This document shows, piece by piece, positions 49,332 to 53,686 of a stretch of 64,000 nt of DNA (position 1 is the stretch's first letter; each line of letters begins with the position of its first letter). The DNA lies in assembly GCA_020847435.1 (NCBI GenBank), contig JADLBX010000032.1, positions 1-64,000 of the forward strand, written 5' to 3'. The position numbers and the translations under genes were made by a program. Origin of the DNA: Anaerolineales bacterium (GTDB lineage Bacteria > Chloroflexota > Anaerolineae > Anaerolineales > Villigracilaceae). The notes beneath the pieces are model-generated. The model was not told the DNA's origin. It saw only the letters and a list, made by a program, of their open reading frames with translations, and made no database searches.

Positions 49332-50345
49332 ATGAACAAAAAACATTTGTTGCTTGCTGTTTCATTTTTCATGCTGGCTTGCGGAGTTGTTGGCGCGCCG
49401 ACGGTTATCCCACCTACCGCGACGAATGCGATTTCAACTGTCCCGCCTGTTGATTCAACGGCTACGACTCCTCCATCCACGGGCGGATCGACAATAGCAA
49501 ACTGTCCGATGTTCCCTGCAAATAACTTTTGGAACGCGCGAGTTGACACGTTGCCTGTGCATCCCGATTCAAACGCGTGGATTGACAGCATCGGGCGCGG
49601 CGAAGGCTTCCACATGGACTTCGGCTCGGGCGAGTGGGACGGGGGTCCGATCGGGATTCCATATAACGTCGTGGTTGGATCAACTGTCCCGTCGTATGAC
49701 GCGGAGTTTTATTATCCCGAAGAATCCGACGCGGGACCGTATCCCATCCCAGAGAATCCAAACATCGAGTGGGGGAGCGATCATCACATTTTGGTCGTGG
49801 ACACCGAGACTTGCACGTTGTACGAAACGTATGACATGAGTTTCGACGGCGCAAATTGGAGCGGCGGCTCGGGCGCGATCTGGGACTTGAACTCGAACGC
49901 CCTGCGCCCCGAAACGTGGACGTCCGCCGACGCGGCGGGTTTGCCGATTCTGCCAGGGTTGGCGCGATACGATGAAATTGCGGCTGGCGAGATTCAGCAC
50001 GCGCTGCGATTCACTGCCGAAGACACGGCGGGATACATTTGGCCCGCGCGGCATCAAACATCCGATCCGCAAAGCGGAATCCCGCCGATGGGCGCTCGCT
50101 TCCGCTTGAAAGCGGATTACGACATTTCGGGTTTCCCGCCTGAGATGCAAATTTTGTTGCAAGCGTTCAAAACGTATGGAATTGTGCTGGCGGATAACGG
50201 CTCGAATTGGTACGTCAGCGGCGCGCCTGATGAACGTTGGGACAACGATAGGCTGCATTTGCTCGATGTGTTGACTGGCGATGATTTTGAGGCGGTGGAT
50301 ACGTCGGTGTTGGTGGTGGAGAGGGATTCGGGTGAGGCGAAATAA
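49332..50345 (+). CDS. Lipoprotein of unknown function
   Basis: Lipobox FFMLACG; complete ORF with SD GAGGA upstream. Confidence 0.7.
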   Translation: MNKKHLLLAVSFFMLACGVVGAPTVIPPTATNAISTVPPVDSTATTPPSTGGSTIANCPMFPANNFWNARVDTLPVHPDSNAWIDSIGRGEGFHMDFGSGEWDGGPIGIPYNVVVGSTVPSYDAEFYYPEESDAGPYPIPENPNIEWGSDHHILVVDTETCTLYETYDMSFDGANWSGGSGAIWDLNSNALRPETWTSADAAGLPILPGLARYDEIAAGEIQHALRFTAEDTAGYIWPARHQTSDPQSGIPPMGARFRLKADYDISGFPPEMQILLQAFKTYGIVLADNGSNWYVSGAPDERWDNDRLHLLDVLTGDDFEAVDTSVLVVERDSGEAK

Positions 50346-50350
50346 AAAAA

Positions 50351-50545
50351 TAACCGCTAAGAGCGCAAAGACCACGAAGAAAGCCAATTAAGATTCTTAG
50401 CGACCTTGGCGGGCTTTGCGGTTCAAAAAAGATTAACCGCTAAGTGCGCGAAGAGCGCAAAGAAAACCAATTAAAAGACCTTAGCGGGCTTTGCGGTTCA
50501 AAACGATTAACCGTTAAGAGCTCGAAGAACACGAGGAAAGACAAG
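50351..50545. repeat. Palindromic AACCGCTAAG repeat units (2 full + left half) upstream of GxxExxY gene
   Basis: Units 50351-50424, 50434-50500, half-unit 50508-50545; ends AACCGCTAAG / TTTGCGGTT. Confidence 0.85.
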
Positions 50546-50554
50546 GAGTTTAGG

Positions 50555-50977
50555 ATGAGCGCTGATATTGAAGCGATTGGGAAAGACATAGTTGACGCCG
50601 CATTTCAAATCCATAAACAATTTGGACCAGGCTTGCTGGAGTCGGCATATCAGGAATGTCATGTATACGAACTTCGGAAGCGCGGAAGGATTGTGCAGGC
50701 AGAATTGGTTTTGCCGATTGAATATGATGGTCAGCAGTTTGATAAGGGGTATCGGATAGATGAATTAGTGGACGATCTCGTTATTGTTGAAAACAAGGCG
50801 GTGGATGAAATTCATCCGATCTTTATGGCGCAACTGCTTACCTACATGAGACTCAAGAATATCAAACTTGGCTTTCTGATAAACTGGAACGTAAAATTAA
50901 TGAAAAATGGAATCCAAAGAGTTGTCCTTGGTCTTGATGAACCGCGCAACCGCGCTGGCTTCATCAAAAAATCTTGA
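50555..50977 (+). CDS. GxxExxY family protein (PD-(D/E)XK nuclease-like)
   Basis: GPGLLESAYQECHVYELRKRG; IDELVDDLVIVENKAVDEIHPIFMAQLLTYMRL. Confidence 0.9.
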   Translation: MSADIEAIGKDIVDAAFQIHKQFGPGLLESAYQECHVYELRKRGRIVQAELVLPIEYDGQQFDKGYRIDELVDDLVIVENKAVDEIHPIFMAQLLTYMRLKNIKLGFLINWNVKLMKNGIQRVVLGLDEPRNRAGFIKKS

Positions 50978-50983
50978 TCTGTT

Positions 50984-51182
50984 CACCGCTAAGTGCGCCA
51001 GGAACGCGAAGGAAAACAAATAAGAATCTTAGCGAACTTTGCGGTCTTGGCGGTTCGTAAAAAACTTTACCGCTAAGCTCGCCAAGATCACGAAGAAAAC
51101 CAATTAAGAATCTTAGCGACCTTTGAGGTCTTGACGGTTCACAAATTAAAAACTTGGCGCACTTAGCGATCTTAGCGGTTAA
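50984..51182. repeat. Palindromic AACCGCTAAG repeat units (2 full + right half) downstream of GxxExxY gene
   Basis: Units 50984-51055, 51069-51141, half-unit 51147-51182 ending CTTAGCGGTTA. Confidence 0.85.
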
Positions 51183-51187
51183 TAATA

Positions 51188-53686
51188 ATGACCTTCACCC
51201 CTCGCCCCTCCCAACAAGAAATCCTCCGCTACAACGGCGGACGGCTCGGCATTGCGGCTGTCCCTGGCGCGGGGAAGACGCACATCCTCTCCGCGTTGGC
51301 GGCGCAGATTATTCAAAGCGGCGCGTTGCAAGACGATCAGGAAGTGCTCATCGTCACACTCGTCAACTCGGCGGTGGACAATTTCGAAGCGCGCATAAAG
51401 CGCTTCTTCGACAATCCTTTGCACGCCCTCTACAAATATCGTGTCCGCACATTGCATGGGCTGGCGCATGACATCGTCCGCGAGAAACCTGCGCGTGTGG
51501 GGCTTGAGGAGCGCTTCAGCATCATTGACGAGCGTGAGGCAGGCTTCATCCGCCGCGAGTCGGTCAATGCGTGGCTGGCGAATCATTCACTGGATGAATA
51601 CCTCGACCCCGCCCTCGATCAATCGAAAATGGATTGGGTCAAGCGTCAGCAACTTCCTGATCTTTTGGACTCCCTCGCCTTAGCCTTTATCCGCTCCTCG
51701 AAAGACCGCCTCTTGACTCCCGAAAGCCTGCGCTCAAAACTGGACGCGTTTCCCACGCCCCTGCCTCTCGCCGAACTTGGCTACAGCATCTACGCGGACT
51801 ATCAACGCGCCCTAGCCTATCGCGGCGCGGTTGACTTCGACGATTTGATTCGACTCGCATTGACCCTCCTCGAAAACGACGAAGAGTATTTAGCGCGTTT
51901 GCAATATCGCTATCCGTATATTTTGGAGGACGAGGCGCAAGATTCGAGTCTCACGCAGGAGAGGATACTTTCGCTTCTCAGTGGTGGTCGAGTAGCCGCG
52001 GAGCGGCGTATCGAGACCACAACGACTGATTTGAATCTAGCCTCTGGTCTCGATACGTCCCGCGAAAAGCGGCGGGACTACTCGACCAGCGAGTTGGGAG
52101 GAAACTGGGTCCGTGTGGGCGACCCGAACCAAGCCATCTTTGAGACGTTCACAACCGCTTCGCCTGAACTGTTGCGCGCCTTCATCCAAAACAACCCAAG
52201 TGTGGATATGCCCGAGTCGGGGCGGTCACAGCCATCAATACTCGCTTTGGCGAATCACCTCATTGATTGGGTGATGATCTCTCATCCCATCCCCGAAGCG
52301 CGGACGGCGCTGTCTGTGCCGCATATTGTCCCTGTGCCAGCGGATGACCCGCAACAGAATCCGCCCGATAACCCTGCGGGCATCAAATTCATCAGCAAAC
52401 GCTATACGCCCGACGAAGAATTGGAAGCGGTGGTCAAATCGGTGAAGGGATATGTCGACTCGATTTGGGATTTCCCCGACGACGACAAACCGACGATTGC
52501 GATCCTTGTCCCGCGTAACCAGCGCGGCGTGGAAGTAGTCAACGCGTTGCGTCAAAAGGGGATTGAGCCGATTGAATTAATTTCAAGCACAAGCGAGACA
52601 CGCGCGGCGGCGGGGTCGTTGAGTTATTTGTTGGCGTATTTGTCCGATCCAAGTTCGGCGCGGAAGTTGTCGAAAGCGTATGAGGTGTTCAGAAGAGACT
52701 GGAGACTGGAGACTGAGGGAGGGCGAAGAGAGGAAGAGAGAATTGGAGAATTAGAGAATTTGACAGCGCGGCGTGAATTGCTTGCGCAGGCGGCGACTCT
52801 GATTCGGAAGATAGGCGATGTGGAAAACTTCGTCGCGCCCCTCACCCTGCCCTCTCCCGAAGGGAGAGGGTATGAGTCCCCCTCTCCAGCGGGAGACGGG
52901 TTAGGGGTGAGGGAGCAGGCGTCCCCTGAGTCTGAAGCGGGCGCCGATCAGGCGCTTCTCCAAGAGTTGGGAGAGTTCCGAGTCGTCGTGCAGAGATGGT
53001 TGAGCGCGGTGACGCTTCCGATTGATCAACTCGTGTTGACGCTGGCGCAGGATGTGTTCACCGAGGTGCATGATCTGGCGCTGGCGCATAAACTGGCGTT
53101 GGTGTTGCGAAAAGCCGCGGACGATCATCCCGATTGGCGACTGCCAGAGTTGACGGCGGAACTGGCGGTGATCGCCAAGAACGAACGGCGCTTCATCGGA
53201 TTCTCGTCGGACGATTCGGGCTTCGACCCCGAACGCCACCGCGGACGGGTGGTGGTGACGACGATGCACAAGGCGAAGGGGCTGGAGTGGGACCGAGTCT
53301 ATTTGATGTCGGTCAATAATTATGACTTCCCGTCGGCGATGCCGAACGACCGTTTTATTTCGGAGAAGTGGTTCGTGCGCAGCGGCTTGGATTTGTCGGC
53401 GGAGGCGTTGGCGCAGTTGACCGCGCTGGGGTGGTCTCGATATGCGCCGCCACCGAACGGTGGCGCTACTCGACCAGCAAATGATGAGTATGACTGGTAC
53501 GAGGAAGGCGCGGCGACATCCCGCTCGCGGCTGGATTATGTGAAGGAACGCCTGCGACTATTCTACGTGGGCATCACACGTGCCAAGCGCGAGTTGTTCG
53601 TCACGTGGAATTCAGGCAGGCAGGGCGATGCGACGCCGTCCTTGCCCTTGTCCGAGTTGATGGGGTGGTGGGAGGAGCAAGGATGA
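51188..53686 (+). CDS. UvrD/PcrA-like ATP-dependent DNA helicase with repeat-derived insertions
   Basis: IAAVPGAGKTHIL; YILEDEAQDSS; VRVGDPNQAIFETF; VVTTMHKAKGLEWDRVYLM; LRLFYVGITRAKRELFVTW. Confidence 0.92.
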   Translation: MTFTPRPSQQEILRYNGGRLGIAAVPGAGKTHILSALAAQIIQSGALQDDQEVLIVTLVNSAVDNFEARIKRFFDNPLHALYKYRVRTLHGLAHDIVREKPARVGLEERFSIIDEREAGFIRRESVNAWLANHSLDEYLDPALDQSKMDWVKRQQLPDLLDSLALAFIRSSKDRLLTPESLRSKLDAFPTPLPLAELGYSIYADYQRALAYRGAVDFDDLIRLALTLLENDEEYLARLQYRYPYILEDEAQDSSLTQERILSLLSGGRVAAERRIETTTTDLNLASGLDTSREKRRDYSTSELGGNWVRVGDPNQAIFETFTTASPELLRAFIQNNPSVDMPESGRSQPSILALANHLIDWVMISHPIPEARTALSVPHIVPVPADDPQQNPPDNPAGIKFISKRYTPDEELEAVVKSVKGYVDSIWDFPDDDKPTIAILVPRNQRGVEVVNALRQKGIEPIELISSTSETRAAAGSLSYLLAYLSDPSSARKLSKAYEVFRRDWRLETEGGRREEERIGELENLTARRELLAQAATLIRKIGDVENFVAPLTLPSPEGRGYESPSPAGDGLGVREQASPESEAGADQALLQELGEFRVVVQRWLSAVTLPIDQLVLTLAQDVFTEVHDLALAHKLALVLRKAADDHPDWRLPELTAELAVIAKNERRFIGFSSDDSGFDPERHRGRVVVTTMHKAKGLEWDRVYLMSVNNYDFPSAMPNDRFISEKWFVRSGLDLSAEALAQLTALGWSRYAPPPNGGATRPANDEYDWYEEGAATSRSRLDYVKERLRLFYVGITRAKRELFVTWNSGRQGDATPSLPLSELMGWWEEQG
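51985..52088. repeat. Two inverted copies of TGGTCTCGATACG...CTACTCGACCA inside helicase CDS
   Basis: 51985-52019 (minus orientation) and 52045-52088 (plus orientation). Confidence 0.9.
52838..52915. repeat. GC-rich palindromic repeat inside helicase CDS
   Basis: CCCCTCACCCTG-CCCTCTCCC-GAA-GGGAGAGGG...GGGTTAGGGGTGAGGG; encoded APLTLPSPEGRGYESPSPAGDGLGVRE. Confidence 0.85.
53432..53476. repeat. TGGTCTCGATATG...CTACTCGACCA inside helicase CDS
   Basis: TGGTCTCGATATGCGCCGCCACCGAACGGTGGCGCTACTCGACCA. Confidence 0.9.

Follow-up and report, generated by a model that had tools for sequence, protein, structure and literature searches.

Does a small nuclease-like gene that lies among palindromic repeats belong to these repeats, and do the two move as one? 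The question is raised by a locus in the window, the 64,000-nucleotide stretch of an Anaerolineales genome (GCA_020847435.1, contig JADLBX010000032.1, positions 1 to 64,000) that was analyzed here. A first-pass annotation had described a GxxExxY gene bracketed by palindromic units, with split half-units at the ends, and had interpreted it as cargo inserted into a unit, the nuclease-like protein and the repeat moving together.

A GxxExxY gene in the loop of a palindromic unit

On the plus strand, the locus consists of two units, a left half-unit, the GxxExxY open reading frame (ORF), two further units, a right half-unit, and the ATG of a UvrD-like gene. Coordinates and a repeat search of the window bear out this order, which the first-pass annotation had given, and yield the following features:

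49332..50345, plus strand: lipoprotein-like ORF, upstream neighbor outside the element; no family match
50351..50423, no strand: palindromic unit 1 (left), complete; three inward CGCNAAG-type words per side and an AT-rich loop
50433..50498, no strand: palindromic unit 2 (left), complete; from direct and inverted repeat analysis and word reading
50507..50548, plus strand: left half-unit, serving as left arm of the unit that contains the gene; third copy in direct-repeat family D1
50543-50548, plus strand: AAGGAG Shine-Dalgarno motif at the end of the left half-unit; from sequence reading
50555..50977, plus strand: GxxExxY protein gene, 140 aa, PD-(D/E)XK nuclease fold; from TIGR04256, PF13366, conservation, dN/dS, AlphaFold2 (AF2) model, and fold matches
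50982..51055, no strand: palindromic unit 3 (right), complete; from word and repeat reading
51066..51139, no strand: palindromic unit 4 (right), complete; from word and repeat reading
51153..51182, minus strand: right half-unit, serving as right arm of the unit that contains the gene; pairs with the left arms as inverted repeats I1-I5
51188..53686, plus strand: UvrD/PcrA-like helicase gene, downstream neighbor; host gene of the slot, outside the element

Each half-unit comprises three 7-nt words of the CGCTAAG type; the five left-arm copies were detected as direct repeats, and the inverted arms around the gene are 84% complementary over 31 nt. The left and right halves add up to one unit, which places the GxxExxY gene in its loop. 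The edges are as previously proposed: the left half-unit carries the Shine-Dalgarno motif of the GxxExxY ORF, and the right half-unit stops 5 nt before the UvrD-like start codon. The lipoprotein-like ORF is conserved upstream of the UvrD slot across the genus.

The GxxExxY protein is a predicted nuclease

The window protein matched TIGR04256 with 126.7 bits (cut-off 35) over model positions 3-116 of 116 and PF13366 (PDDEXK_3), the sole Pfam match of this gene, with 122.6 bits (cut-off 22); judged by these profiles, it is a full member of the TIGR04256 GxxExxY/PF13366 family. Among 175 family proteins, E29 and D69 are invariant (175/175), E79, K81, Q93, and N110 are conserved in 174, and E79-x-K81 and Q93-xxx-Y97 form further conserved motifs. 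The set E29, D69, E79, K81, Q93, and Y97, which follows the RecB/Cas4 pattern, is conserved in 172-175 of the 175 proteins, and the E ... D ... ExK ... QxxxY active-site set of the RecB/Cas4 type is present in full. The window protein retains an intact RecB/Cas4-type active site and is a predicted nuclease.

The AF2 model of the window protein (pLDDT 92.6) has Cas4 SSO0001, LHK-Exo, and lambda exonuclease as its nearest folds in a Foldseek search, with modest scores; given E-values of just 2e-3 and weaker, the kinship to Cas4 and lambda exonuclease is one at the level of fold and motif. A sequence search of solved structures with the window protein matched no significant chain. The best viral structure match (TM 0.74) is an unnamed protein, and the next (TM 0.65) is the PD-(D/E)XK nuclease of Halogranum tailed virus 1.

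A dN/dS of 0.03-0.04 against orthologs in the same slot shows that purifying selection acts on the gene. GxxExxY genes share the strand of their neighbors in 94 of the 95 cases where the neighbors agree, compared with 223 of 256 for control genes and 59 of 75 for the small ones among them, a bias expected if the GxxExxY gene depends on transcription of the host operon. Eight GxxExxY genes were found on plasmid records and none in phage records. Cultured bacteria with such a gene include Flavobacterium, Runella, and Bacteroides finegoldii.

Inverted arms bracket GxxExxY genes in many phyla

In a controlled survey, we aligned the 250 nt upstream of each gene with the reverse complement of the 250 nt downstream and called a bracket when a score of 28 was reached. 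In material consisting mostly of metagenome assemblies, with loci biased to high-scoring genes and gene starts assigned by rule, inverted arms bracketed 74% of the 95 unique GxxExxY genes from the same bacterial family, compared with 4.6% of mismatched flank pairs and 1.3% of 385 neighboring genes. Among 80 GxxExxY genes from many phyla and from Methanosarcinales archaea (named genomes), 62.5% were bracketed, compared with 8.2% of mismatched flank pairs and 2.8% of 397 genes. Because mismatched pairs score low, the left and right arms match one another gene by gene. Two of the three top-scoring control genes look like four-helix-bundle genes that are bracketed themselves. Bracketing of GxxExxY genes is real and general; the earlier claim would have been overturned by a lack of repeat association in GxxExxY genes elsewhere, and both samples showed the association. 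It is not specific to the AACCGC(T/A)AAG palindromes that had been proposed for such a survey: the GxxExxY copies in this genome differ in their word.

Repeat words change along the protein tree

An arm is a run of the word C[AG]CN[AG]A[GT], which is directed toward the gene on either side, with about three words per arm and a spacing of 8, 9, or 10 nt (86, 254, and 98 cases, respectively), that is, roughly one DNA turn. A word label could be assigned in 124 of the 175 genes, compared with 7 of 175 in reversed sequence. When mapped on the tree of the 175 proteins, which rests on few alignment columns, the word class required 40 changes and the last letter of the word 3, compared with 73 +/- 2.5 and 22.4 +/- 1.1, respectively, for shuffled labels. 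With one protein retained per 60%-identity cluster, the signal persisted for the full class (P 0/500) and for the last letter (2 changes vs 7.9); with 55% clustering, it was gone except for the last letter. Copies within one genome sit in different clades and bear the word of their clade-mates in other genomes. Thus, the word tracks the GxxExxY phylogeny. Part of this signal is due to common descent, since the gene and its word are in physical linkage. Yet the word is kept while the proteins diverge to 60% identity, which is unexpected for unselected non-coding DNA and suggests that its upkeep reflects selection on recognition.

Repeats and gene copies in this genome

A search of the 3.05-Mb genome gave 114 matches to the half-unit pattern ACCGCNAAGNNCGCNAAG, in excess of chance (0 matches to the reversed control pattern). 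Gene-less units are far more numerous than GxxExxY genes and are scattered genome-wide. The nine distinct complete solo units that were measured span 61-71 nt, and a typical one has an AT-rich loop between arms of three words each, with TTA immediately outside.

This genome encodes six GxxExxY genes. Four of the five besides the one described above are bracketed, each by words other than those at its locus:

L001: bracket of the CACAGAG type
L002: bracket CAGATGAACGCAGAT
L003: bracket CGCTAATC
L005: bracket CACGGA
L006: no bracket; words on the right side only

Up to 14 divergent GxxExxY copies were found in one genome.

In 57 solo CGCNAAG units from this genome, G061, and G058, the arms are complementary at the free positions in 10, 10, 4, and 3 units, against an expectation of 17, 22, 15, and 16 of 57. 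This reduced pairing, of which units of other words gave no clear sign, could stem from avoidance of perfect hairpins or from founder copies. The ACCGC unit also occurs in this genome within a composite repeat, TTGAGGGCGGACAGG ... CCTGTCCGCCCCTGAA, present in at least five near-identical copies (L334-L338, L340). At L340, this unit is split by an insert of ~150 nt that carries a CACGGAT-type palindrome and has imperfect inverted ends of ~14 nt (AGACTGTTTCTTAA / TTAAGAAACGCTCT) and a 5-nt CTAAG duplication.

Site comparisons across the genus

Eighteen genomes of the genus were compared. The UvrD-like gene flanks the slot in seven genus genomes examined besides this one. Gene and units occur together in this genome, G073, and G061, and both are missing in G058, where the gap is short, in G065 and G066, which have a RAYT-type gene accompanied by palindromes of its own, and in G068, which has a reverse-transcriptase-like ORF. 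Accordingly, units are present in 3/3 genomes with the gene and 0/4 without it; G072, which has a 72%-identical GxxExxY gene before UvrD, is outside this unit tally. Between RuvC and RuvA, gene and arms are found in this genome, in G061, and, with a frameshifted gene, in G065; in G037, a right arm remains together with the C-terminal end of the GxxExxY reading frame (L273), and the remaining genomes have nothing or a different palindrome. Gene presence in this slot requires four changes on the flank tree, and three bearers have non-bearing sisters. The CoA-transferase slot contains the gene with CGCTAATC arms in this genome, G017, and G037, and in G066, both arms are kept around a remnant of the end of the gene (L279). 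The GntR/DapE slot holds a solo CACNAAG unit in G058, a CACNGAG element in this genome, and a bare gap in G069.

Arms and gene are therefore one unit, jointly present or absent at given sites, and the contents of the intergenic gaps turn over quickly. Because L273 and L279 keep the tail of the gene beside or between the arms, the gene-less state there arose by deletion, and gene-less units can derive from a gene-bearing element. Old slots with repeated loss account for part of the presence pattern: among 88 gene pairs with at least 70% identity, 24 share both neighbors and 48 share none.

The two halves of the earlier interpretation fared differently. That nuclease gene and repeat belong together is supported by the bracketing across phyla, the match between word and tree, and the UvrD slot. 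Insertion of the gene into a pre-existing unit found no such support: the empty sites with one intact unit that had been suggested as a check were sought at the UvrD, RuvC/RuvA, CoA-transferase, and GntR/DapE slots, and no intact unit of the same word, free of any gene remnant, was found there, L273 and L279 being deletion remnants. Nor did the compared sites include a clean insertion of a gene-bearing element with target duplication. Four loci in three genera (L103, L106, L107, and L124) encode GxxExxY proteins with ~95% amino acid identity and share the exact ends GTCTTAACC...GGTTAAGAC. We rejected these as fresh jumps because nucleotide identity is just 81-85% where alignable; with this divergence, and with all four located just upstream of the start of a leucine-rich-repeat-type ORF, they show the ends of the element and not recent movement.

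Unit numbers were also compared with gene content. CGCTAAT units number 14, 7, and 5 in the three genomes that encode their cognate gene vs 0-4 in the 15 others (P 0.003). For units of the window word, number tracks gene presence poorly: the medians are 36 with and 19 without the cognate gene (P 0.07), and two genomes without that gene contain 115 and 72 such units; thus, the window's own units persist without the cognate gene, as REP-like relics would.

A proposed nuclease-plus-repeat element and its alternatives

The recurrence of the gene-in-palindrome arrangement suggests a class of mobile elements, so far undescribed, that combine an enzyme with a repeat. The window copy is probably a member of a family of small elements that consist of a GxxExxY nuclease gene and inverted word arrays and work in a REPtron-like manner with an unrelated nuclease. 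The broader proposition seems to us evenly balanced: that GxxExxY genes are a new, very widespread class of self-propagating elements, in which the PD-(D/E)XK nuclease recognizes its own periodic word array and maintains gene-less palindromes, with clade-specific words coexisting in one genome. Under both, the words would be recognized directly and movement would be driven by the nuclease. Recognition of the word at the DNA level appears to fit the sequence patterns best. The nuclease would bind its own word at several positions on the same face of the DNA and cut or nick at a unit, most likely when replication or repair has left the DNA single-stranded or its strands separated; repair of the break would then place copies of units, or of the entire element, in gaps between genes. 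We infer this step from recognition to copying, a cut followed by repair from another copy. The element would survive only where genes stay unbroken and transcription of the host operon reads it, and gene-less units would be dependent relics. L006 and L345, which have no bracket, are counterpoints to the mobile-element interpretation.

It is rather unlikely, in our assessment, that a RAYT or DDE transposase spreads the units in trans, with GxxExxY carried as a passenger and kept because it benefits the host or the repeat. In its favor, each of the 41 genomes searched has RAYT-like Y1_Tnp genes, and in two relatives such genes fill the UvrD slot; the composite repeat in which the ACCGC unit travels, the CACGGAT-type unit inside the L340 insert with its inverted ends and duplication, and the great excess of gene-less units over genes also agree with this scenario. 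Against it, the word tracks the GxxExxY protein tree, and the RAYT in L256/L258 is accompanied by palindromes of another kind. In addition, four-helix-bundle genes are bracketed by a different style of repeat, without the word, indicating that cargo and repeat are matched.

Strong purifying selection, same-strand placement in operons, long-term retention of some slots, and arms that abut the start and stop codons would all suit a non-mobile protective or regulatory module, in which a nuclease useful to the host in defense or DNA repair reads the units as landmarks and is autoregulated by its own units. We nevertheless consider such a module distinctly improbable in view of the patchy presence between sister species, the decay to pseudogenes and remnants, the many divergent copies per genome, and the dispersal of units genome-wide. 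Very improbable, and already weakened, is the possibility that the arms form a transcript stem around the gene, processed or terminating, as in 23S rRNA intervening sequences: the gene-in-arms layout resembles such a sequence with its S23 ORF (PMC4990558), and the arms fit 5' and 3' untranslated positions, but among mismatches between the arms, G.U is not more common than A.C (138 vs 156, P 0.32), the free positions of CGCNAAG units match below chance, the opposite of stem selection, and gene-less units are spread genome-wide.

Relationship to known systems

The closest parallel to the proposed nuclease-plus-repeat element is the RAYT/TnpA-REP system, or REPtron, in which nuclease and palindrome co-evolve (PMC8266576). 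In both cases, a small nuclease gene lies between inverted palindromes that are also found alone in many intergenic copies. However, the enzyme of REPtrons is a HuH Y1 transposase, whereas that of the window is a PD-(D/E)XK nuclease, and the RAYTs in these genomes are separate genes; REP is one stem-loop after a conserved short motif, whereas an arm here is three short words at 8-10-nt spacing. That the GxxExxY nuclease may process its cognate palindrome has indirect support from the co-variation of word and protein. Because its enzyme is unrelated to RAYT, the GxxExxY element is not a member of the REPtrons, although its mode of action may be similar.

The 23S rRNA intervening sequence, the ORF of which encodes the S23 protein (PMC4990558), likewise has a single small ORF inside inverted arms and looks selfish, but it differs in rRNA context, protein family, and repeat style: the loci fetched by the time of this comparison contained no 23S signature k-mers, the neighbors in the window are protein genes, and profile searches did not identify the window gene as an S23/four-helix-bundle ORF. 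Cas4, lambda exonuclease, and RecB-type nucleases are fold neighbors that share the ExK and QxxxY motifs, from which the window protein is set apart by its size (~140 aa) and the lack of a significant sequence match to any solved chain. In comparison with MITEs and classical DDE insertion sequences, the arms act as inverted ends (the four copies with exact shared ends), but no gene-bearing copy had a clean target duplication. In comparison with homing endonuclease genes, which reside within their own recognition site, the gene lies inside a unit, but the compared slots gave no intact empty unit of the same word free of gene remnants.

In open PMC papers, we found no link of GxxExxY or PF13366 to repeats, no earlier description of a GxxExxY/repeat element, no published role for GxxExxY (papers that name it do so in passing), and no relevant account of the repeat words themselves. 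Periodic inverted words like CACAGAG, CGCGAAG, and CACGAAT occupy intergenic regions in many bacterial phyla, and we found no account of their origin; linking them with the large GxxExxY family provides both with a directly testable explanation. If this explanation is correct, a second, unrelated enzyme joins the "nuclease plus cognate palindrome" lifestyle of RAYT-REP, and the family constitutes a naturally occurring set of small proteins whose 7-nt DNA specificity shifts.

Other genes and repeats in intergenic slots

Some of the slots described above have other occupants. In four relatives (L262, L266, L267, and L274), the RuvC/RuvA gap contains another palindrome family, TGTCATTGCGAGG...GCAATGACA, and in L256, L258, L261, and L295, the same slots appear from their sequences to be filled by a RAYT-type gene with palindromes or by a reverse-transcriptase-like or LAGLIDADG-like ORF.

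Four-helix-bundle (TIGR02436) genes from the same genomes reached a score of 28 in 12 of 19 cases, compared with 2.3% of mismatched pairs. Their brackets (L155/L118, L150/L087, L132, L130, L133, and others) contain GGTTAGA, AGTGGTA, or GTTGACG with a period of ~7 nt.

On a plasmid of Sphingomonas parapaucimobilis (L345), a GxxExxY gene is located between fabD and fabG without an inverted bracket, with words on the left only and a 2-nt gap to fabG; this is possibly a settled copy.
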